NCBI GenBank assembly: GCA_024279035.1
Contig: JAJRSA010000032.1
Coordinates: 1 to 64,000, forward strand
From: Alphaproteobacteria bacterium
GTDB lineage: Bacteria > Pseudomonadota > Alphaproteobacteria > Micavibrionales > Micavibrionaceae
DNA length: 64,000 nucleotides
Direction of reading: 5' to 3'
The translations under genes were made by a program, and so were the position numbers. The notes under the pieces are model-generated. The model ran no database searches, was not told the DNA's origin, and saw only the letters and a program-made list of their open reading frames with translations. This document shows positions 17,184 to 46,468 of the stretch, piece after piece. Numbering within the stretch: position 1 is the stretch's first letter; each line of letters starts with the position of its first letter.

Positions 17184-18155
17184 ATGAATGAGTTTAATAT
17201 GATAATGAAGCAGTTTCTTTCCCTCCTTGATGATGATAAAGTGTCTCTTTCTGAAGATGGCCAAACTCTGACATTTAAAGGGCATCCTATTCCAGTTCGC
17301 AATGGTGTGCCTCGTTTTACCCCCGATGAATCTTACTCAGACGGGAATTTTGCAAAGCTACGAGAAGAGCATGCTGTCCTTCAGTTTGATAGTAAGAATG
17401 GAACAACAGATCGTGATCAGACGATTTCTGATCGCACGACTTGGCCAAAAGAGTTTTGGGCAGGAAAGACAGTTCTTGAATGTGGATGTGGCGCAGGCCC
17501 TGATACAGAGATCCTAAGAAATTGGGGCGCAAAAGTTATCGCGGTGGATTTGGCTGGGTCTGATATTGCAAAAGAGAGTTTGGACGATGAAGAAAACATT
17601 CAAATTGTGCAAGGCAGTATTTTAGATCTTCCCTTTAAGAAACAAAGCTTTGATATCGTTTTTTGTCATCGTGTGCTCCAACATACGCCTCACCCTCATG
17701 AAACACTTGAGCATATTCTCCAATTTGTAAAGCCCGATGGCGCCGTTTTTGTGCACTCGTACGCGCGTACGTTTATTCAGATGTGTCGCTGGAAATATGC
17801 CCTTTTGCCGTTCACCCGCAAAGTTAAATCCGAAAAGCTTTATAATTTTGTAAAAGGCTATGCCCCTTTTGCCATGAAACTCACGGGGACTTTAAGAAAA
17901 ATACCAGGAGGACGAGGTATAAACCATTTCTTCATCCCCTTCTTGAACTACCGCCATGCCAAACAGTTTGAACCTCTCACAGACGAACGTGTCATGGAAA
18001 TTGGTGTTCATGACACCTTCGATGCGTTGTCTCCGCCCTATGATAATCCTATGAGTGCAAAAGATATGCGTTTAATCGCTGAAAAACATCTCAAGCACCC
18101 ATTTGAAATTGAAGAACGTCCCATGGTGACGTTGTTGAGAACGAAGGTCAGTTAA
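17184..18155 (+). CDS. SAM-dependent methyltransferase (class I, type 11)
   Basis: A soluble protein of about 323 residues. A short N-terminal segment (LTFKGHPIPVRNGVPRF) resembles the Trm112-like module that often precedes these enzymes. The Rossmann core shows motif I VLECGCGAGPDTEIL, the acidic VIAVDLAGSD, and FDIVFCHRVLQHTPHPHETL for motif IV/post-motif. The C-terminal part is basic and aromatic. The substrate is not evident. I place the start at 17184 because of the promoter seen just upstream; starts at 17199 or 17205 are also possible. It ends four bases into the sodN gene on the other strand. Confidence 0.82.
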   Translation: MNEFNMIMKQFLSLLDDDKVSLSEDGQTLTFKGHPIPVRNGVPRFTPDESYSDGNFAKLREEHAVLQFDSKNGTTDRDQTISDRTTWPKEFWAGKTVLECGCGAGPDTEILRNWGAKVIAVDLAGSDIAKESLDDEENIQIVQGSILDLPFKKQSFDIVFCHRVLQHTPHPHETLEHILQFVKPDGAVFVHSYARTFIQMCRWKYALLPFTRKVKSEKLYNFVKGYAPFAMKLTGTLRKIPGGRGINHFFIPFLNYRHAKQFEPLTDERVMEIGVHDTFDALSPPYDNPMSAKDMRLIAEKHLKHPFEIEERPMVTLLRTKVS

Positions 18156-18580
18156 TTTCTATGTTCCTGAGGGGAAAAATAGAGTTTTTCGTAAGATTTA
18201 ATATCTTTTTGTAACGCATTCACATGAGACAGATCCGTGGTTTGTTTGGCTTTCATGGCATGGATTAGAATTTGATGCAAAAGAGCGAGATGCACGGTGT
18301 AATTTTCACGATTTTGGGTGAGGCGTTGTGTTAAAAAATAAGCACTGATGATATCTTGAATTTTCTGGGCGTGTTCTTCTTTATTTATCGTCCAGCGTAT
18401 GATGTCATGGGCATTGTATGATGCGAGAATGCTTTTCATGGATTTTTCAATGGTGGTGATATGCTCTTCTAATTCATCAAACTGACGGGCGTCATCATAA
18501 ATACCACATGGAATTTGGCAGTGTGCCTGAACACTATGAAGTGGAAAAAATAGAATAAATATAAAGAGATATTTAATCAT
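18152..18580 (-). CDS. sodN: Nickel superoxide dismutase with N-terminal signal peptide
   Basis: The 142-residue precursor has a hydrophobic signal peptide (residues 1-19, ending SVQA) directly followed by HCQIPCGIYDD. This is the Ni-hook of NiSOD: free N-terminal His1, Cys2 and Cys6 of the mature enzyme hold the metal; the usual sequence is HCDLPCGVYDP. The remainder is a four-helix-bundle-like stretch of about 110 residues, near the normal mature size of 117. Cleavage after the Ala-type signal would create the needed N-terminal His, so a SodX-type protease may be unnecessary; none is encoded nearby. The ATG overlaps the sdhA stop, coupling it to the succinate dehydrogenase operon, a source of superoxide. 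Confidence 0.88.
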   Translation of the reverse strand: MIKYLFIFILFFPLHSVQAHCQIPCGIYDDARQFDELEEHITTIEKSMKSILASYNAHDIIRWTINKEEHAQKIQDIISAYFLTQRLTQNRENYTVHLALLHQILIHAMKAKQTTDLSHVNALQKDIKSYEKLYFSPQEHRN

Positions 18581-20370
18581 TAATACACCCGTGCTTTCGG
18601 AGGAACGGCCTCTACTTCGTCTGTTAAAGTTGTGAGAATGACAGGGCGTGCGCCTATGGTGGTTTTGCCTTGCGGATCCACTTTAATGGTGGAGTGCTTC
18701 ATCCAGTTTATATCATCTCGGTCGGGATAGTCTTCATGCGCATGCGCACCACGGCTCTCTTTGCGGTTTTCCGCGGAGTGCATTGTGGCCACGGCTTGGG
18801 ACATGAGGTTATCAAGCTCTAAGGTTTCAATGAGGTCTGTATTAAAAATCATGGAGCGATCTTGAAGGCCAAGGCCTTTTTTTTCTGCAAAACATTCGTC
18901 TATTTTAACACAGCCTTCTTTGAGGGTTTCACTAGTACGAAAAACGGCAGCGTGGTCTTGCATCGTTTTTTGCATTTTGAGGCGAAGATCAGAGGTTGAT
19001 GTTGTGCCTTTGGCATGGCGGTAATGATCTAGACGTTCAAGTGCATGTGTTCCCTCATTGCCTTTCAAAGGGGCATGGGGCGTATTCGGTTTGATGAGTA
19101 TTGTGGCTTGTGTTGCGGCAGCCCGTCCAAAGACCACAAGATCAAGCAATGAGTTTGATCCTAAACGGTTTGCACCATGGACAGAGACACATGCAGCTTC
19201 CCCAATCGCCATCAACCCTGAGACAATTTGGTTTGGATTATCAGGCGTAGGATTGAGCACTTCTGTTTTATAATTGGTCGGAATACCGCCCATATTGTAA
19301 TGCACCGTTGGAAGCACTGGGATGGGGTCTTTTGTGACATCAACGCCCGAAAAGACTTTGGCAGTTTCTGCAATCCCTGGGAGACGGGTATGGATAATAT
19401 CAGACTCAAGATGTTCTAAATGCAGGTGAATATAGTCTTTATGCTCTCCAATCCCTCGCCCTTCACGAATTTCAATGGTCATAGAGCGCGAGACCACATC
19501 ACGACTGGCTAGATCTTTGGCAGAAGGCGCATAGCGCTCCATAAAGCGCTCCCCTTCCGAATTTGTAAGATAGCCGCCTTCTCCCCGTACGCCTTCGGTA
19601 ATCAGACATCCTGCGCCATAAATTCCTGTGGGGTGGAACTGAACAAACTCCATATCTTGCAAAGGAAGTCCTGCGCGTAAGATCATCGCATTTCCATCTC
19701 CTGTGCATGTATGCGCAGACGTACAGGAGAAGTACGCACGTCCATATCCGCCGGTTGCCAAAACCGTTTGGTGGGCGCGGAAGCGGTGAATTGTACCATC
19801 ATCTAAATTCCACGCCATCACACCAAGGCATTCCCCCGCCTCACTCATGATAAGATCGAGCACAAAATACTCAATAAAGAATTCAGATTTATGTTTGAGG
19901 GCTTGTTGGTAGAGCGTGTGGAGAATAGCATGCCCCGTCCGATCTGCTGCGGCACATGTGCGTTGCGCCGTGCCTTCTCCATAATGTGTGGTCATACCCC
20001 CAAAGGCCCGTTGATAGATTTTGCCTTCAGGTGTACGACTAAAGGGGACACCCTGATGCTCAAGCTCGATAATCGCAGCAGGGGCTTCTTTGCACATATA
20101 TTCAATCGCATCTTGATCACCAAGCCAGTCAGAGCCTTTAATCGTGTCATACATATGAAAGCGCCAATCATCTTCTCCCATATTCCCAAGGGCTGCTGAA
20201 ATGCCCCCTTGAGCCGCAACCGTATGAGAGCGTGTCGGAAAAACTTTCGAAATACACGCCGTTTTCAAACCCTTCTCAGACATCCCAAATGTCGCACGCA
20301 ATCCTGCACCGCCACCTCCAACAACAATAACATCGTATTCGTGATCTATAATTTCATATGTTTTTTTCAT
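18580..20370 (-). CDS. sdhA: Succinate dehydrogenase flavoprotein subunit SdhA
   Basis: SdhA oxidises succinate to fumarate on the inner face of the membrane. The 596-residue protein has the FAD-binding [14 protein letters not shown] (residues 16-29), the covalent-FAD histidine in [17 protein letters not shown], and the active-site regions [15 protein letters not shown] and RGEGGYL. The C-terminus shows the family REDYPDRDD-like segment and ends in PPKARVY. sdhC and sdhD lie upstream as usual. Downstream, sdhB would be expected, but sodN is found instead, so the iron-sulfur subunit must be encoded elsewhere. Confidence 0.98.
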
Positions 20371-20383
20371 GGGTATGTTAGCC

Positions 20384-20722
20384 TTATACTAATGCAATTT
20401 TTAAAACTGAGACAATACAGACAATACTTGCCCCGAAGAAAAAGAGTTTTTGGATGATGAGTTTAAGTTTTTTTAGACATTTATGATGAACATAATCTTC
20501 CGTGATAACTTGTGCACCAAGGGTCGCATGGTAAAATCCGACCATCACAAATGTAATCATTGCAATCGCATTCAAAGGTTGAGATAACCATGCTGTAAAC
20601 TGTTCATAGTCAGATCCAACAAGATCAACAATAGAATAGACAAGCCATATGACGAGTGGAATAAGAAGAACAGCGGTTATACGTTGTGCTAGCCAATGAT
20701 GCGTAGATTTTTTATTGCTCAT
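20384..20722 (-). CDS. sdhD: Succinate dehydrogenase membrane anchor SdhD
   Basis: A 112-residue membrane subunit with three hydrophobic segments. [20 protein letters not shown] opens the first one, and [17 protein letters not shown] contains the conserved histidine and the Asp-Tyr of the quinone-site region. I use the ATG at 20722 ([10 protein letters not shown]) because AAGGAT stands six bases upstream; the ATG at 20749 would overlap the end of sdhC. It anchors SdhA/SdhB with SdhC and helps bind heme and ubiquinone. Confidence 0.92.
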
Positions 20723-20732
20723 TCTTTTATCC

Positions 20733-21125
20733 TTAAATGTAAAGCGCACAGATCCATGTGCTGAGCGTAAGAATTATTGTCCCCAAGAGGACAATATAGC
20801 CAGCACGATAGGCCTGTTTAATATTTAATAAATACCCCATATCCCAAAAGAGATGGCGTATTCCGTTACACAGATGGAAATAGAGAGAAAAACTCCAGCC
20901 AAAAAGCATAAAGCGTCCCAAGGGTGAACCTGCAAAATTCATAAAAGTGTTATACGCACCTGGCCCTGTTGCTGCGGCACATAAGAGCCACAAAAGCATG
21001 AGAGATCCAATCGCCAACGCCACGCCTGTTGCGCGGTGCGTAATGGATAACACAGATGTCATCTGCGGTTTATAAATCTGCAAATGAGGCGAGAGAGGCC
21101 GTGTATCTTGTGAGGGGTCGCTCAT
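20733..21125 (-). CDS. sdhC: Succinate dehydrogenase cytochrome b556 subunit SdhC
   Basis: A 130-residue subunit with the family start RPLSPHLQIYKPQMTSVLSI and THRATG, followed by three membrane segments. The heme-ligand histidine is in FHLCNGIRHLFWDMG. It begins 32 bases after the transporter gene at 21158, with no terminator visible, so the sdh genes are probably in one transcript with the two genes upstream. Confidence 0.94.
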   Translation of the reverse strand: MSDPSQDTRPLSPHLQIYKPQMTSVLSITHRATGVALAIGSLMLLWLLCAAATGPGAYNTFMNFAGSPLGRFMLFGWSFSLYFHLCNGIRHLFWDMGYLLNIKQAYRAGYIVLLGTIILTLSTWICALYI

Positions 21126-24846: not shown

Positions 24847-26216
24847 AGGCTGTCAGATAGATTGTGTAAGTAGCAATTAAAACTTAATTCTATCGTTAAA
24901 TAGAATCGCGAATTGGTTCAATGCTTGTGGCCAATTCCTAATAGGCATAGTCCACTTTTTCTTCGCATTTTGCAATGCTAGAAACAGAGATTTTTTTACT
25001 GCGGTATCATTTGGGAAAACTCCTTTGCTCTTGATAATCTTACGTATTTGGCGGTTTACAGCCTCTATTGCGTTTGTGGTGTAGATAGCTTTTTTGATAA
25101 ATTCAGGGAAAGCCAAACAGGGTACAATACCGCTCCAGTTTCGTTGCCAAATATCTGATATAGTTGGGTATTTGTCATCCCACTTGTCACGGAAATTTTG
25201 AAGCTCCAACTTTGCAGCTTCCTCTGATGGGGCGGAATATATGGCTTTCAGGTCGGCGGCAACAGCCTTTTTGTCCTTCCACGGCACAAATCTCATAGAA
25301 TTTCTGACCATATGAACGATGCAGAGCTGGACAATTGTTTGTGGAAAGACGCTGGTTATAGCTTCCTCAAAACCTTTAAGGCCATCAACGCAAGCAATAA
25401 GAATATCTTCCACGCCACGGTTTTTAAGCTCTGTAACCACTTGAAGCCAAAATTTTGCCCCCTCATTTTTGCTGATCCAAATCCCTAAAACCTCCTTTTG
25501 CCCTTCCATATTTACAGCCAGCGCAATATAGACCGCTTTGTTGCAAATCATATGATTATCGCGGGTTTTGATGTGAATGCAGTCCAGATAAACAATAGGA
25601 TAGAGGCTTTCCAAGGGGCGGTTTTGCCACGCATTTACCTCATCAATAACTTTATCTGTGACGTTGGAAATAAGCTCGTGGCTGACTTGTGTGCCATAAA
25701 TTTCGTACAAGTGTTCTTGAATTTCTCGCATGGTCATTCCACGCGCATAGAGCGAAATTACCTTGTCATCAAAACCGTCAAACTGGCGTACTCCCTTGGG
25801 TACAAGGCGTGGCTCAAACGCGCCATCACGATCACGGGGCACAGCGATTTCCAGCGTATCATCGCCAGCAATAACGGTCTTAGAATAATGGCCGTTACGG
25901 CGGTTATCAGCTGGCTTATAAGCCTTATCATGCTTTTGATAGCCAAGATGATGCTCCATCTCACCTTCAAGCATGCCGTTAACCAGCCCGCGCTTAAGCT
26001 GCTGAAAAAAACCTTCGGTGCCAAATAACTCTTGCCCATCAGGGCATGAACGTAAAATTTCATTGATTAATTTAGGTGATAGTGTGTATTTAGATTTTTT
26101 AGTAGTCATAGTATTTCCTTATTCTATGCTTCGCATTGTTCGCAAGTCTAACGACTTGCTCTCAATTGCAAAGCATGATCAACAAACACTACTTACACAA
26201 TCTTCATGACAGACCC
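24846..26216. mobile_element. Complete IS256-family insertion sequence with 8-bp target duplication
   Basis: The 1371-bp element is bounded by imperfect inverted repeats. The left end (24846-24873) and the right end (26189-26216, reversed) share CTGTCA followed by three differing bases and the 15-bp block AGATTGTGTAAGTAG. It contains one transposase gene on the minus strand and nothing else. The flanking AAACAATA copies are identical, which indicates a fairly recent transposition into the last codons of the kinase gene. Confidence 0.93.
24877..26109 (-). CDS. IS256-family transposase
   Basis: A 410-residue mutator-type DDE transposase. The catalytic triad is seen as Asp in YLDCIHIKTRDN, Asp in LIACVDGLKGFEEA, and Glu in TTNAIEAVNRQIRK. 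The N-terminal DNA-binding region (GMLEGEMEHHLGYQKHD, RNGHYSKT) and the central RGMTMREIQEHL motif are standard. Length is full and no frame is broken, so it is probably active. It is transcribed toward the kinase gene. Confidence 0.96.
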   Translation of the reverse strand: MTTKKSKYTLSPKLINEILRSCPDGQELFGTEGFFQQLKRGLVNGMLEGEMEHHLGYQKHDKAYKPADNRRNGHYSKTVIAGDDTLEIAVPRDRDGAFEPRLVPKGVRQFDGFDDKVISLYARGMTMREIQEHLYEIYGTQVSHELISNVTDKVIDEVNAWQNRPLESLYPIVYLDCIHIKTRDNHMICNKAVYIALAVNMEGQKEVLGIWISKNEGAKFWLQVVTELKNRGVEDILIACVDGLKGFEEAITSVFPQTIVQLCIVHMVRNSMRFVPWKDKKAVAADLKAIYSAPSEEAAKLELQNFRDKWDDKYPTISDIWQRNWSGIVPCLAFPEFIKKAIYTTNAIEAVNRQIRKIIKSKGVFPNDTAVKKSLFLALQNAKKKWTMPIRNWPQALNQFAILFNDRIKF

Positions 26217-29651: not shown

Positions 29652-30872
29652 TTAAATTGCACCATCTAGTAGTCCGCCCATCATACTGTCCATGCTCATA
29701 TTCATAACTGTTAAGGCATAAATAGCACTTCCAAAAGCAAGTGCAAGATAAACTCCAGTTAGAACAAAAGCCAGCCAAACGATGAGTTTGTGTTTTGTCT
29801 TTGAAGATTGCGTCCGCATTTCTGCAATCGCAGTCATAATTGTAGCAACCTGATCCAAATCAGACAAGGTCGCAAGTTCTAATCTTTCTGCTTTTGTTAG
29901 CGGAGGTTTATCAAGAGCTGTTCCTAGGTTGATTCCGAGGGACAGCATTTCTCTCGCATTATCCCAATATTGAGCCACTTCAGGAACGGAGGTGGCATTT
30001 GCAGACTCTTCCAAAGCATCACTAATAGGAACATGCCCTTTAAGCATACGTGCAGCAGCAGACATTGAGTCTGAAAAGCCAAGATCTCTTAAATACCCTC
30101 CAATTAAAGGAATTTTCCTTACAATTCTGGCGGTTGGCCAGTCTGATTTCCCACGATTGAGTATATATGAAACGACAGCCCATGCCATAAATCCCCCCAT
30201 CGCAAAGGCAAAATAGATAAGAACGTCCCATGTTAGCTCTAAATTTCCAACAACACGATTAAAACGTTCAAGTTCTTCAGGGTTTGTTGGTTTGTTCTCT
30301 TGAAAAAAGCCCAAAACCATTCCTTTTCCCCAAAAAAGGGATTGCACGATGGTGATCACGTCAAACCCTAGCCATGCCATTGTGCCCATAATAGCTCTAT
30401 TGTTTGCACGTTTTTGTGTAATAGATTGAATGGCGTGAGGAATCCCCTCAAATAATTTATTAGATCTCTCACTGGCAGAGAGAATAGATAGGGTGCTGTG
30501 ATCAAAGATACGAAGGGCTTTGAGGGCATCAATAATCCCCAACCCACGAGAAAGAGCTTCTCGTGCAGGAGCAAGAATATTTTGTCGACGGGGATTTGTT
30601 TCCGCCTCAATCATTTTCCAGAGAGCCACTCCAGGGGAGGTGGCAAAAGACCTGAATTGAATACCGCGCAAGAGTTGAACTTGCCACCAGCTCGACCGTG
30701 CAAGAATACGTTCTAGGGGTGTTCTTTCATGAGGACGTATATTGAGAACATACCCCCCCATTTTTTGAACAGCCAAACGCACATCATTACGCGTAGGAAG
30801 GTAAAAAGATTCTTCTTGTATCTTAACCCCTCTCCGTGTTTCAAAAGCAATTTCAACGACCCATTGTTGCAT
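29652..30872 (-). CDS. Inner-membrane platform protein, PilC/GspF/BfpE family
   Basis: A 406-residue type II secretion F-domain protein. Two cytoplasmic helical domains (about 60-170 and 265-370) are each followed by hydrophobic segments near 170, 220-250 and 375-400. The second domain begins with RKIPLIGGYLRDLGFSDSMS, a recognisable GspF feature. It organises the ATPase and pulls pilin subunits from the membrane. It starts 24 bases after the ATPase stop. Confidence 0.88.
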   Translation of the reverse strand: MQQWVVEIAFETRRGVKIQEESFYLPTRNDVRLAVQKMGGYVLNIRPHERTPLERILARSSWWQVQLLRGIQFRSFATSPGVALWKMIEAETNPRRQNILAPAREALSRGLGIIDALKALRIFDHSTLSILSASERSNKLFEGIPHAIQSITQKRANNRAIMGTMAWLGFDVITIVQSLFWGKGMVLGFFQENKPTNPEELERFNRVVGNLELTWDVLIYFAFAMGGFMAWAVVSYILNRGKSDWPTARIVRKIPLIGGYLRDLGFSDSMSAAARMLKGHVPISDALEESANATSVPEVAQYWDNAREMLSLGINLGTALDKPPLTKAERLELATLSDLDQVATIMTAIAEMRTQSSKTKHKLIVWLAFVLTGVYLALAFGSAIYALTVMNMSMDSMMGGLLDGAI

Positions 30873-30896
30873 GTGTTATATTGTTTCCTATTTTGT

Positions 30897-32678
30897 CTAT
30901 AGATCTAGATATGAAATCGCTGAAAGGGGGTCAACTTGACCCGTTACGACAAGATCCAACAAGCCTTCTTGTCGTGTGTAACTTCTGACACCATCCATAT
31001 CCACCATCTCATTAACATTACTCATAAGGGCATTGAAAACACGATTTCTTTCAGATGGGCCTAAAGAAATCATAAGAGCATCCAGTAAAAGTGTTCGCCC
31101 AGAAATTCCTGTTCTATTGCATAGCTCGCACCCAGAAGAGTTATGACGTCTGACGAGTGTTTCTGGTGGAATAGAAAAAATAGAGATCTCATTTGGAGAG
31201 AGAATATCGCCAAGACGTTCCCGATGTGCACATGCTTGGCAAAGTGTTTTAACTAGCCGTTGATTCAGAATACATTTTACCTGCTGTGCGAGCGTAAATG
31301 TAGAAGATCTTTCTCTGTCGGATGGGATAAGGGATTTAAGACGTTCAAAGGTTTGGAGTGCTGTATCTGCGTGTACGGTTGAAATCACAGTATGGCCAGA
31401 TTCAGCTGCCTTTAGAGCTGTTTCTACTGTTTCACTATCTCTCAGTTCTCCAATAACGATATAGTCTGGGTCGTGGCGCATAGACGCACGAATAAGATCA
31501 GAGAACGCTCCTCCAGGCATACCAGGGCGTACTTGCCATTGTGTTGCGTAGCGAAGTTCATACTCGATAGGATCTTCAATTGTGAGAACATGTCGTCGTC
31601 TGCGGTCAATTTCTTGAATACAGGCATACATCGTGGTTGTTTTTCCTGATCCTGTTGGACCAGAGAGCATAATTAATCCGCCACCCCCTTTGATTTCGGG
31701 GGAAAGGAGCTTTTGAAGGGTTCCTCCCACATCTTCGTGGCGTTTAAAAAGCTCACTAAACCCTCGAAGCGCTGCTCTATCAAGAAGACGCATCGTGATC
31801 TTTTCTCCATCTTGGGCTTGAGATCCTGCGGCGACACGGACATCAATCGTCCGTCCCTGCCATGTGAAACTGAAACGTCCATCTTTAGGCGTAATTCTAT
31901 CTCCAAAGTTCATTCCTGCATCTCGCTTAAGAAGCGTTGTAAGTCGTGCCATTGCATCATTGGGCAAGATATGCATGGGAATAAGATCTCCGTCTACTCT
32001 GTAACGAATCCAGTTTGGGGCGTCTGGGTTGTTGTCTTGAATAAGGTGAATATCAGAAACGCGCATTTGAAGTGATTCTGCGAGCATGTCGCGCAAAAAT
32101 TGGTTGAGAAGTAATCCATTATCAATATCTGAGAGCCACTCTGCCAGAGTTTTTTCACAGTGATCTGTTGAGAGGTCGTGGACGGTTTGTAGAGTTCTTA
32201 ATAAGTCCTGGCGATCCCAAACTTCTATCTCAAGTTGTTCCACATAAAATCCGCTTCTGTTTGCCGCGGAGGATAAAAGATCTTTTTGTTTTCTATTTAA
32301 TTCATTTAAAGGTGCAATTTTTAAAACACCGTCTGAGAGTCCAATAAGGTGAATATTGAGAGGTAACCAATATTGAACAGGAAGGCTTGATCGAAGAGCG
32401 TCTCCCGTGGCGGTATATTTTGTTCCTTCCTGATCATCTACTTTAGCTGGAGCAACGGCTCCGGCTAAATCTAAAAGATGTTCAGTTGAGAGAGACTGCC
32501 CTTGACCTAAAAAAAGATTGCGTTCTTTTTGAACCATGTCCAGATAACGCTCACGCGTGTCGTGAGCGATTAAGCGACGATCAGGTTCTTGCCGACGATC
32601 AGCTCCTGCTGAAGAGCCCAAATCTATTTTCCGACGATCAGATTTTTGACGCGTATCGTGTTCTGAATCATTGTTCAT
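30897..32678 (-). CDS. Pilus assembly ATPase, PilB/GspE family
   Basis: A 593-residue hexameric secretion ATPase. Walker A GPTGSGKTT lies near residue 340, followed by the Asp box (TIEDPIEYEL), Walker B (DYIVIGELRDSETVETA) and the His box (SGHTVISTVHADTA). Two CxxC pairs (CQAC, CELC) near the C-terminus form the usual metal-binding knob. The N-terminus has repeated D-R-R-x motifs (SDRRK, ADRRQ, PDRR), a charged tail of unknown use. It overlaps the Ig-repeat protein by four bases. Confidence 0.93.
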   Translation of the reverse strand: MNNDSEHDTRQKSDRRKIDLGSSAGADRRQEPDRRLIAHDTRERYLDMVQKERNLFLGQGQSLSTEHLLDLAGAVAPAKVDDQEGTKYTATGDALRSSLPVQYWLPLNIHLIGLSDGVLKIAPLNELNRKQKDLLSSAANRSGFYVEQLEIEVWDRQDLLRTLQTVHDLSTDHCEKTLAEWLSDIDNGLLLNQFLRDMLAESLQMRVSDIHLIQDNNPDAPNWIRYRVDGDLIPMHILPNDAMARLTTLLKRDAGMNFGDRITPKDGRFSFTWQGRTIDVRVAAGSQAQDGEKITMRLLDRAALRGFSELFKRHEDVGGTLQKLLSPEIKGGGGLIMLSGPTGSGKTTTMYACIQEIDRRRRHVLTIEDPIEYELRYATQWQVRPGMPGGAFSDLIRASMRHDPDYIVIGELRDSETVETALKAAESGHTVISTVHADTALQTFERLKSLIPSDRERSSTFTLAQQVKCILNQRLVKTLCQACAHRERLGDILSPNEISIFSIPPETLVRRHNSSGCELCNRTGISGRTLLLDALMISLGPSERNRVFNALMSNVNEMVDMDGVRSYTRQEGLLDLVVTGQVDPLSAISYLDL

Positions 32679-34213
32679 TGGGAATCACTGGAGCTTGTTG
32701 AAGATGATCTAGATGAAGAAGTTGAAGATGATCCAGATGAAGAAAGAGATCTATCGAAGAGTAAACTAACTTTATCGGTTCCATTTTTAAATTCAATACC
32801 TGTGCGTTTTAGAGTGATGTTCCATTCAACACCACCTATAACGACAGGGATATTATGCTTGATAATACGACTTCCACCAGGGCCTGAAATAATAGCTTTT
32901 TTTATAGAGTGGGACGTAATAATAAATCCAGCCAAGGCGTCCGTTTTTTTATAGATGCGTTGTACAATACCCGCGTGCTCAACAATTGCTTGAGACTCTT
33001 TACTGACTCCTTTTGTTGCATTCCCTCGTACAGGGACAACCAAAATCCCTCTGGCTCCATCATGTTCGATTTGAAGATCATCAAGAATAGATCCTTCTCG
33101 TACAGGAACCCATCTTAGAGTTAAGGGGCATGCCTCTATGGGCCTCAGGATAGTCCCTTCTTTACAGCCTTTACCTAGAATAGACATGCCATTATCCGTT
33201 CCTGAAAGAGAGAGAGAGTTAAGCTTAAGGTCGGAATCTCCGACATTGACGAGGGAGACAGAGATAGAGGCTTCATTTTCAATTCCTGATGCAAAATCTA
33301 TGGCTTCTTGTGAAGAGACAAGAAGCCCTCTTCCTGGAACAACATTAGGAAAAATTGTTGCGACAGTTGCTGTATCTGGTGTAAATTTACCCATGAGCGG
33401 AATGCTGGCAATCTTTGAAGATCCTGTATGCTCAACAATAATGACACCGTCTGATTGCCCAGCTTGTTGTGGCGCCCAAGTGATTGTCGCAAGGCATGCT
33501 TGGCTTGGTTGAAGCTCTTCACAATCATGATCTAGCCTATAGCCTGATTGTGAAGAAGATTTTATTTTTACGGCCTTAATAGTAAGGGGTGTGGCCGTCA
33601 CATTCCTTAGAATAATAGATTTGATCAGAGGTTGACTTGAAGAAAGACTTCCAAAATCCACCTTATCAGGAATAGATTCAACATCACTTAATACATTTTG
33701 ACCAGTAGAGTCTCCTGCGTCGACATCTCCCTTAAGTGTTGCTTTTGTAAGTTGAGAACGCCCATCGTGTTGGATAAGCATTTCAACACGCCACGCGCCA
33801 TCCTGTAGACCTTTAATGCTCACAACAATAGGACATTCTGCCCCTCCAGGGAGCGGGATGCCAGAGCATTCATTGAGGCTAATTGAGGCAGAAACAGTTG
33901 AAGAAGGATAGAGCTTTATTCCTTTTATATTGACGGGACGTCCCCCTTCATTGCGAAAAAGCGTTAAGGCCTGACCTGTCGATCCAAGGGCAATTGTTCC
34001 CCCATCAAATTCATCTTCTGTTGGGGACAATCCTCCGAGGACACTCCCTCCTTTTCCAGAAGACTGTTTTCCAGGAGCAAAGAAGCCAGAAGACGATGCC
34101 AGTGTTTGAAATGATATTAAGATGCAAATGCACGCACAAGATGCAATAAACAAAAGAGGGGTCTTTGCCCCAAATCTTTTGTTCTTATTGTGATATCTAT
34201 TTATATTTATCAT
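32675..34213 (-). CDS. Periplasmic Ig-repeat protein with PilP/GspC-like C-terminal domain
   Basis: About 512 residues: a membrane or signal segment (LLFIASCACICILISF), then three repeats of about 95 residues. Each looks like an Ig-like ASPM-SPD-2-Hydin domain (VDFGSLSSSQPLIKSI and HDG or EHTG near the ends) and carries one cysteine pair (NEC-EC, HDC-AC, KGC-AC). The end (AIISGPGGSRIIKHNIPVVI, then GGVEWNITLKRTGIEF) resembles the HR domain of GspC/PilP, which links inner membrane and secretin. A Ser/Thr-rich tail follows. Start at 34213 preferred over GTG 34261. Position between secretin and ATPase fits a connector role; this is inference. Confidence 0.65.
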   Translation of the reverse strand: MININRYHNKNKRFGAKTPLLFIASCACICILISFQTLASSSGFFAPGKQSSGKGGSVLGGLSPTEDEFDGGTIALGSTGQALTLFRNEGGRPVNIKGIKLYPSSTVSASISLNECSGIPLPGGAECPIVVSIKGLQDGAWRVEMLIQHDGRSQLTKATLKGDVDAGDSTGQNVLSDVESIPDKVDFGSLSSSQPLIKSIILRNVTATPLTIKAVKIKSSSQSGYRLDHDCEELQPSQACLATITWAPQQAGQSDGVIIVEHTGSSKIASIPLMGKFTPDTATVATIFPNVVPGRGLLVSSQEAIDFASGIENEASISVSLVNVGDSDLKLNSLSLSGTDNGMSILGKGCKEGTILRPIEACPLTLRWVPVREGSILDDLQIEHDGARGILVVPVRGNATKGVSKESQAIVEHAGIVQRIYKKTDALAGFIITSHSIKKAIISGPGGSRIIKHNIPVVIGGVEWNITLKRTGIEFKNGTDKVSLLFDRSLSSSGSSSTSSSRSSSTSSSDSQ

Positions 34214-34279
34214 TTGTATCCATGCCGTCTGTTCATGTTTTTTCTGTTTATAAAATATCACCCATTTGTTACCAATTTA

Positions 34280-35932
34280 TCAATTTTTAAAAATAGGCTG
34301 AAGAGGAATGTAATTAGATTTTTTTGAAACCTCTAAACTTTCTTCTTCTTTTACCTCTTCTGAGTCTTGAATGGTAACTGGGTCAAATACAGGTGCTGGA
34401 GGTGTAATCTCTATGGGTGATTTTTGTTCCATATTAATTTTTTTGATAAAGTTTTGAGCGGACTCTTGAAGATCTTTTTGTGATTCTTCTTGTAGTTTCT
34501 TAAATTCCTCATCTGTAGGATTCACGTAAACAACAACACGCGGACGAAGCAAGAAAACAAGTTCTACATTGCTTGTCTGGGCAACCCTACTCGATGGAAA
34601 AATGGGCTCTTGTATGCCAGGGCCTTCCTTAGAAAAATTATCAATTTCACGTACTAGTCCCGCAATAAGAAGGGAATCTCCAGGACGAATTCTGACTTGT
34701 GTTGAAAGTTCACGTTCTGTTGTTTGTGGAAGCTGTACAATAGCATCTGGATTATCATCAAAAGTATCAATGCTTCTGACCTCCTGAAGCAAGATATCAA
34801 TATCACCATAAACTGTTGCATTATCCCAGTTCGAGGCAATATCAAATGTAAACCCTGTGTCAACTGAATCAGTTGTTGTGGACACGCTGATTGTTCCTGT
34901 TGTCCCCGAAACAGATCGTGTAATTTCAGACACATAGTTTTGGGTATCAGCAACACGGAATCTTGCACTTGAACCAGATAAAACAGTAACTTGAGGCTGT
35001 GAAATTGTTTTTACGGCCCCATATTCAGAAATAAATTGAAAGACTTTATCCCCATCGATGGCGCCTCCATCCAAGGTTGGCAATCCAATACTCACAGGTG
35101 TTCCCAGCGATGGGTTGGTGACACCTGCCAAGTCAACCCCCACGTTGAATTTCCCGAAAGTTTCAATACTATTCCAGTCAATTCCTGTGGAGTTCCCCGA
35201 ATTGAGAGAAACTTCCCAGATGTATGTTTCAAAGATAATTAATGCTGTGTTCGCTCTCAGGCGTTGAAAATAACTTTCTGCGACTTCTGCTGTTCTATGT
35301 GATGCGCGGTAAACAATTGTTCGTGTTGAGTTATCTGTGATGGTGGGACTTCCAACGATTTCTTCGATAGCCCCGGAAACATTTGTCAGAAAAGTATCAG
35401 AGTCCCCAACGGGAGGAATTGTTATCGTAAATAATTGTGTTTCCTTAACAATTAAAATCCCATTTTCATAGGAACAATATAGATCAGCAAGGCTACAGAC
35501 ACGAGTGACGACTGTACCTATTTCTCCCTTTAAGTTTGTAATTGTAATAGGGCGATCTAAACCTTGGGTTGCTTCAAAGGCAATTGGCATATCTGTACCA
35601 TCTAAAATAAGCTGAAGCGCACCTCCCAAAGTTTCTCCGCGAAGCTCAAATGGACCTACAATTTTCTTTGGAAGAGGTGAAGACGCATGTGCTTCTGGAG
35701 TGAGAACATCTTTTCCCAATGGAAGGTATGAAATAGCATCTGGGCGTTCATTAATGGCTTGTTTTCGTTCCTGTGCAAATTGGGGAGAAGGGATATTAAC
35801 ATTTCTTGTGTCTGGTCCGGTGATTTGCGCGCAAGAGCTAATAAAAAGAGCGCTCACTACAGCAAAAGACACCCAAGATTTGCGGAGGGGATATTGACGT
35901 GCCAGTGGATTTTTTATTAGGTGGTGAATCAT
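34280..35932 (-). CDS. Lipoprotein secretin, PilN/BfpB type
   Basis: A 550-residue outer-membrane channel. The N-terminus has a lipobox (FISSC, Cys34), then an STN-like domain (FEATQGLDRPITITNLKGEI) with a cysteine pair (VCSLADLYC), and a C-terminal secretin domain (TVLSGSSARFRVADTQNYVS; VRIRPGDSLLIAGLVRE; VELVFLLRPRVV). Lipidation of the secretin itself is a type IVb pilus feature. The last 70 residues are charged and variable. It follows the response regulator by about 40 bases. Confidence 0.88.
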   Translation of the reverse strand: MIHHLIKNPLARQYPLRKSWVSFAVVSALFISSCAQITGPDTRNVNIPSPQFAQERKQAINERPDAISYLPLGKDVLTPEAHASSPLPKKIVGPFELRGETLGGALQLILDGTDMPIAFEATQGLDRPITITNLKGEIGTVVTRVCSLADLYCSYENGILIVKETQLFTITIPPVGDSDTFLTNVSGAIEEIVGSPTITDNSTRTIVYRASHRTAEVAESYFQRLRANTALIIFETYIWEVSLNSGNSTGIDWNSIETFGKFNVGVDLAGVTNPSLGTPVSIGLPTLDGGAIDGDKVFQFISEYGAVKTISQPQVTVLSGSSARFRVADTQNYVSEITRSVSGTTGTISVSTTTDSVDTGFTFDIASNWDNATVYGDIDILLQEVRSIDTFDDNPDAIVQLPQTTERELSTQVRIRPGDSLLIAGLVREIDNFSKEGPGIQEPIFPSSRVAQTSNVELVFLLRPRVVVYVNPTDEEFKKLQEESQKDLQESAQNFIKKINMEQKSPIEITPPAPVFDPVTIQDSEEVKEEESLEVSKKSNYIPLQPIFKN

Positions 35933-46060: not shown

Positions 46061-46397
<337 letters not shown>

Positions 46398-46468
46398 TAC
46401 TTTTTTACTGAGGGTATATATGTTTTCTGTGAATGAAAACGTATAAAGAGCCTAATGTGAATTGACGT

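Follow-up and report, generated by a model that had tools for sequence, protein, structure and literature searches.

The window, i.e., the whole 64-kb stretch of DNA analyzed in this work, carries on its minus strand a putative nickel superoxide dismutase (NiSOD) gene, sodN, which follows three succinate dehydrogenase genes in the order sdhC, sdhD, sdhA, sodN. The features of this locus are as follows.

18152–18580, minus strand: sodN open reading frame, ATG start, 142 aa
18524–18580, minus strand: predicted Sec-type signal peptide (leader) of SodN, 19 aa, from the translation and from hydropathy and -3/-1 counts compared with relatives
18152–18523, minus strand: mature NiSOD, 123 aa plus stop, starting at His1 (PF09055, AlphaFold2 model, ranking of solved structures)
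18497–18523, minus strand: Ni-hook HCQIPCGIY, mature residues 1–9, with ligands invariant in the aligned mature sequences
18580–20370, minus strand: sdhA, directly upstream of sodN (PF00890 and PF02910)
20384–20749, minus strand: sdhD-like gene for a succinate dehydrogenase membrane subunit, same operon (PF01127, 65.9 bits; presumed to be D from gene order)
20733–21125, minus strand: sdhC-like gene for a succinate dehydrogenase membrane subunit, same operon (PF01127, 114.9 bits; presumed to be C from gene order)

According to the preliminary description of this DNA, signal-like residues 1–19 directly precede HCQIPCGIYDD; the translation agrees with this, residue 20 of the precursor being His1. 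The protein belongs to the Pfam family Sod_Ni (PF09055; 93.5 bits at a cut-off of 25), and the six solved chains matched by its sequence are all Ni SODs (best E 1e-4). With the NCBIfam sodN equivalog TIGR02753 it scored 39.8 bits, below the curated cut-off of 90. In its own genome (G000, listed as 99.94% complete) the gene is the sole Sod_Ni match.

An AlphaFold2 model built from 81 aligned mature sequences (mean pLDDT 92.6, pTM 0.86) predicts the NiSOD four-helix bundle; its least certain part is the hook, with an average pLDDT of about 60 over the first ten residues. When solved structures were ranked against the model, NiSOD chains occupied places 1–16 in Foldseek (E 0.0022–0.027, none under 0.001) and reached Z 15.0–15.4 in VIA-align vs 12.5 for the next family, FliS, on a scale where chance alone can give a helical bundle 13 or 14. 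The model shares with the NiSOD of Streptomyces coelicolor (SodN; PDB 1q0d) the hook ligands and motif and the four-helix bundle (Z 15.4, 116 residues aligned; sequence match at E 1e-4), while identity in the structural alignment is 15% and the window protein has Gln3 for Asp3 and His for Arg47. The Streptomyces enzyme is cytosolic and is processed by the protease SodX.

In whole-genome profile searches, the genomes with Sod_Ni numbered 14 of 385 in the class, two of 99 in the family and six of 398 in the phylum, two of these six (G000 and G042) being already counted in the class set. Two types of protein were found. The cytosolic type, with the motif HCD(I/V)PC and a polar leader, was represented by 11 proteins in the class and three more in the phylum. 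The exported type, with the motif HC(Q/E)IPCGIY and a hydrophobic leader, includes the window protein and those of G448 (same genus), G091, G112 and G743. The profile search gave no Sod_Ni match in a second genome of the same genus, G481 (86% complete). With TIGR02753, five other exported-type proteins scored 38.7–45.4 bits.

To collect more relatives, genome contigs were scanned with three aligned exported-type proteins as the query; 247 were obtained and the best 80 were analyzed. These 80 bear 12 phylum names (three relatives have none): Thermodesulfobacteriota (28), Myxococcota (11, all titled Deltaproteobacteria), Kiritimatiellota (9), Bacteroidota (9), Acidobacteriota (5), Pseudomonadota (4) and six others. 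In all of them HC(E/Q)(I/V)PCG is immediately preceded by a hydrophobic leader; this set cannot serve to count exceptions, because the scan patterns were of the exported type and one spanned the residues before His1. One match, annotated as superoxide dismutase [Ni] and 42% identical, was found among plasmid records (Ilyobacter polytropus), and none among phage records.

A tree calculated from 98 rows, with 126 columns kept, placed 83 exported-type and 15 cytosolic-type sequences on opposite sides of a single branch (SH-aLRT 99); the tree was made by a quick method, is unrooted and contains a partial, very long Streptomyces row, and the program warned of long branches. The window protein grouped with those of G448, L022 and L059 (support 83). 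Two exported-type copies (L060 and L074) were present in Candidatus Aminicenantes G412; no other genome in this set of 52 gave multiple Sod_Ni matches. At one cytosolic-type locus (L010:967–1950), the NiSOD forms the end of a single open frame of 327 codons whose permease-like start presumably represents a nickel permease of the HupE/UreJ type.

The hook is strongly conserved. Residues H1, C2, P5, C6 and G7 were invariant in all 81 aligned mature sequences and Tyr9 was kept in 79 of them; the mature window protein has no cysteines other than Cys2 and Cys6. Position 3 was Asp in 15/15 cytosolic-type rows and Glu (60) or Gln (23) in 83/83 exported-type rows, so that, in the alignment, it marks the two types. 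The preliminary description had listed two changes in the classical hook: Gln3 stands as such a mark, while Ile8 is not unusual, since Ile occupies this position in 13 of the 15 cytosolic-type rows. The column of Arg47 holds His in the window protein and all 83 exported-type rows, and also in six of 15 cytosolic-type rows. Tyr62 was paired with Tyr62 of the window protein by MAFFT through a placed gap, and not by the ungapped phmmer alignment. Glu17 was rejected as a fixed partner of His1: 14 of 15 cytosolic-type rows have a residue other than Glu in its column, and only seven of 83 exported-type rows have Glu there.

The leader of the window protein contains Lys3, a hydrophobic core and a V-Q-A end (Val at -3, Ala at -1) directly before His1. 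Scripted scoring revealed in it the early charge, the hydrophobic core and the small residues at -3 and -1 expected of a signal peptidase I substrate, and the lack of such a site, which the preliminary description named as a finding that would speak against it, is therefore not the case here. Arginine, needed for a Tat reading, is absent from the leader. Its best 11-residue mean hydropathy is 2.61; the range was 1.55–3.64 in 84 exported-type leaders vs 0.23–1.20 in 10 cytosolic-type leaders. Leader starts were chosen by rule (the nearest start giving at least 18 residues, with K or R early). The 84 exported-type rows correspond to 82 distinct loci (L013 = L022, L014 = L059), and the ten cytosolic-type leaders are from the 11 of the class, L008 having no start within the leader limits; L183–L185 and the Streptomyces row were excluded.

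All exported-type leaders (84/84 rows) end in A (75), S (8) or G (1) directly before HC, with A (47), V (24), S (4), I (3), T (3) or L (3) at -3. Across the 80 scanned loci, identity to the mature window protein is 45–58%, and the preservation of the leader/His1 junction in every row despite this divergence argues that it is not due to chance. Cytosolic-type leaders likewise have A at -1 in 10/10 and V or A at -3 in 10/10 measured cases. Judging from the leader sequences, the cut motif is common to both types, and what distinguishes them is the hydrophobic core.

NiSOD is generally regarded as dependent on a dedicated protease for the release of His1. No match to TIGR02754, the profile of sodX, was found in the window genome at E<=0.01; a sodX gene in this genome, with a conserved processing site, was another finding named in the preliminary description as unfavorable to its reading. 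We further surveyed 63 genomes at E<=0.001, 11 of the cytosolic and 52 of the exported type; this and the surveys of other superoxide dismutases described below included 49 of the 80 scanned loci, L022 and L059 being entered as G091 and G112. A TIGR02754 match lay 86–241 bp from the Sod_Ni match in 11/11 cytosolic-type genomes of the class, exceeding the curated cut-off in only one of them, and no match was found in the three exported-type alphaproteobacterial genomes searched (G000, G091 and G112). Thus sodX adjoins sodN in 11/11 cytosolic-type vs 0/3 exported-type genomes (the calculation by genome also counted G448 as a fourth exported-type genome without a sodX search of its own), or, by genus, in 8/8 vs 0/3 (p 0.006).

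TIGR02754 matched somewhere in 21 of the 52 exported-type genomes, all 21 being among the 49 searched besides G000, G091 and G112, and 20 of them having matches only below the cut-off; in none of the 52 was the match beside the exported-type NiSOD gene. The single match over the cut-off (G411:C177:38392–38658, 76.1 bits; locus L096) is in a genome where the sole NiSOD, of the exported type, is encoded on a different contig. A motif scan of the flanks detected an S26-type open reading frame at nine of 14 cytosolic-type vs none of 83 exported-type loci, with flanks of differing length; its presence at only nine of 14 cytosolic-type loci indicates that the motif is not fully sensitive. We take SodX to be a member or relative of the signal peptidase family, and the weak TIGR02754 matches found in the Escherichia coli and Bacillus subtilis controls fit this membership. 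In general, the sodX-linked alphaproteobacterial NiSODs (TIGR02753; e.g., L002 and L007) resemble the window protein in belonging to Sod_Ni and in the small residue before His1, and differ from it in the polar leader, in Asp3, in the adjacent sodX and in their TIGR02753 scores (155.5 and 181.2 bits in the two tested vs 39.8).

Taken together, these data make it probable that the window gene encodes a periplasmic NiSOD exported by the Sec route, whose N-terminus is made by signal peptidase I and not by SodX. The preliminary description had suggested just such an enzyme, and the leader site, the missing sodX match and the conservation throughout the exported type support it; they also support widening the suggestion from one gene to the whole type. 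The precursor would be translocated by Sec, and signal peptidase I would cut after V-Q-A, removing the leader and freeing the amino group of His1 in one step. The freed hook would then bind a metal, most likely nickel, in the periplasm, and the enzyme, presumably a hexamer, would remove superoxide there. Export would thus replace the dedicated cytosolic protease.

Several features of the protein weigh against this reading. The TIGR02753 cut-off was missed, the predicted second sphere is altered (Gln3, His at the Arg47 position), and Cys2 and Cys6 could form a disulphide in the oxidising periplasm. The low confidence of the modelled hook, the Foldseek E values above 0.001 and the sodX match over the cut-off in G411 count on the same side. 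The missed cut-off and the altered second sphere would also suit an exported metal-binding protein that is not a dismutase, such as a periplasmic Ni or Cu carrier or sensor using His1 and the two cysteines on a NiSOD scaffold, and other exported proteins with N-terminal His are described as binding Ni or Cu as carriers in the part of PMC12537917 consulted. We consider this explanation unlikely: H1, C2, P5, C6 and G7 are invariant and Tyr9 nearly so, the modelled fold is that of NiSOD, and a superoxide reductase gene adjoins some of the exported-type loci (see below).

Two further explanations concern the fate of the leader. It might remain as an uncleaved membrane anchor, leaving His1 blocked and the protein inactive or with another role; in favor of this, the window leader is short (19 aa) and has one Lys. 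An anchor would have no need of a small residue at -1 or of ending at His1, and both hold in every one of the 84 rows, which makes it very improbable. Alternatively, the protein might stay in the cytosol and, like the classical type, have its leader removed there by a protease, whether SodX or a different one. The V-x-A or A-x-A ending of all ten measured cytosolic-type leaders agrees with this, and because of it the cut motif alone cannot separate the types. The hydropathy ranges of the two types do not overlap, the tree sets them apart and the window genome is without a sodX match, so that a cytosolic enzyme is hardly credible.

If the preferred reading, an exported NiSOD matured by signal peptidase I, is correct, a genome without sodX could still make active NiSOD, as ordinary secretion would free His1. 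Such bacteria would have a periplasmic superoxide dismutase needing neither copper nor cytosolic nickel, and the loading and reduced upkeep of a dithiolate nickel site in the periplasm would become testable. It is conceivable, although we rate it somewhat short of probable, that NiSOD maturation comprises two anciently separated lineages, one using SodX in the cytosol and the other, spread over many phyla, using signal peptidase I during export, with the metal loaded outside the cytoplasm, and providing the periplasmic superoxide dismutase of bacteria without CuZn SOD. As small residues immediately precede His1 at both cut sites, SodX might have arisen from a signal peptidase that was recruited to the cytosol along with a NiSOD whose hydrophobic core had been lost, or evolution might have run in the opposite direction.

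An exported precursor has already appeared in print, since the signal peptide and His of the Roseiconus lacunae NiSOD (WP_230780104.1) were used as a search probe that retrieved many NiSODs (PMC12537917, 2025). As in the window protein, the printed signal peptide ends directly before His. The likeness concerns the signal peptide alone: NiSOD has the role of a probe in that paper, and the part consulted contained no statement on maturation, class or activity. Another route to a free hook that does not involve SodX was proposed for algal ubiquitin-NiSOD fusions (PMC4460010; see also PMC6332867, both consulted in part), which differ from the window protein in having ubiquitin in place of the signal peptide and in their eukaryotic hosts. 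Nothing on exported NiSOD was found in the consulted parts of PMC8346466, PMC10783094, PMC5745492, PMC10959288, PMC11636452 and PMC2667541, and no account of an exported class or of SodX-free maturation was recognised among the papers listed by full-text searches, which covered few subscription journals.

We also analyzed the distribution of other superoxide-handling enzymes. The window genome contains a leaderless Fe/Mn SOD and gave no CuZn SOD match. Among alphaproteobacterial genomes, Fe/Mn SOD was present in 4/4 of the exported type (two of one genus) vs 2/11 of the cytosolic type (p 0.011 by genome and 0.024 by genus, in a small sample); among the 49 other exported-type genomes it was found in 25, and 24 had no match. 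A CuZn SOD match was detected in two of 64 genomes examined, both of the exported type, and in four of 14 control genomes without NiSOD. None of the 11 cytosolic-type genomes had one either, so the absence of CuZn SOD does not separate the types. It is suggestive, though not shown, that the cytosolic type replaces cytosolic Fe/Mn SOD and the exported type covers the periplasm.

The periplasmic superoxide dismutase SodC, a CuZn enzyme, belongs to another family and uses other metals, and its job and compartment are the same as those proposed here for the exported NiSOD. The exported NiSOD would stand next to a cytosolic Fe/Mn SOD, in the role that elsewhere belongs to periplasmic CuZn SOD. A superoxide reductase gene (PF01880) was located directly upstream of the NiSOD gene in five of the 68 exported-type loci (out of 82) included in the neighbor analysis, namely L028, L037, L057, L060 and L074, two of them with a PF06397 domain; these five loci represent four genomes, because L060 and L074 are from one isolate.

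In the window, sdhA and sodN overlap by a single base, the last of the sdhA stop codon and the first of the sodN start codon (TAATG). In G448, sodN (64% identical to that of the window) starts three bases past sdhA. In both genomes sdhB is on another contig than sdhC-sdhD-sdhA (in the window genome at G000:C9:27615–28289). Within the family, sdhB directly follows sdhA in G136, is about 1 to 4 kb from it in G237, G434, G436, G438 and G453, and is on a different contig in G435; since this distance varies so widely, the gap behind sdhA is not a peculiarity of sodN. Candidates for a promoter or terminator of sodN's own were rejected, their numbers being equal to chance (8 vs 8.7 and 4 vs 3.8 expected, respectively). 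In the genus of the window strain, co-production with the succinate dehydrogenase subunits may tie the amount of NiSOD to respiratory capacity.

A link to sdh for the whole exported type was rejected: no sdh genes were seen by eye among the open reading frames surrounding L022 and L059, and, among the neighbor clusters shown, only the window and L127 had an sdhA-like neighbor. The presence of Sod_Ni in two of 99 genomes of the family and the lower G+C content of sodN (36% vs 48% in sdhA) hint that the gene was acquired by transfer.

It should be added that a Mutator-family transposase gene (PF00872, 403 bits) lies at 24877–26109, about 4 kb from the sdh-sodN genes. The region 29652–35932 contains type II secretion-like genes (T2SSF, T2SSE and secretin) and, between them, a gene for a 528-aa protein with a HYDIN-like Ig domain. 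No tRNA genes were found in the window, and an RNase P RNA was revealed at 46061–46401 (RF00010, 315.5 bits).
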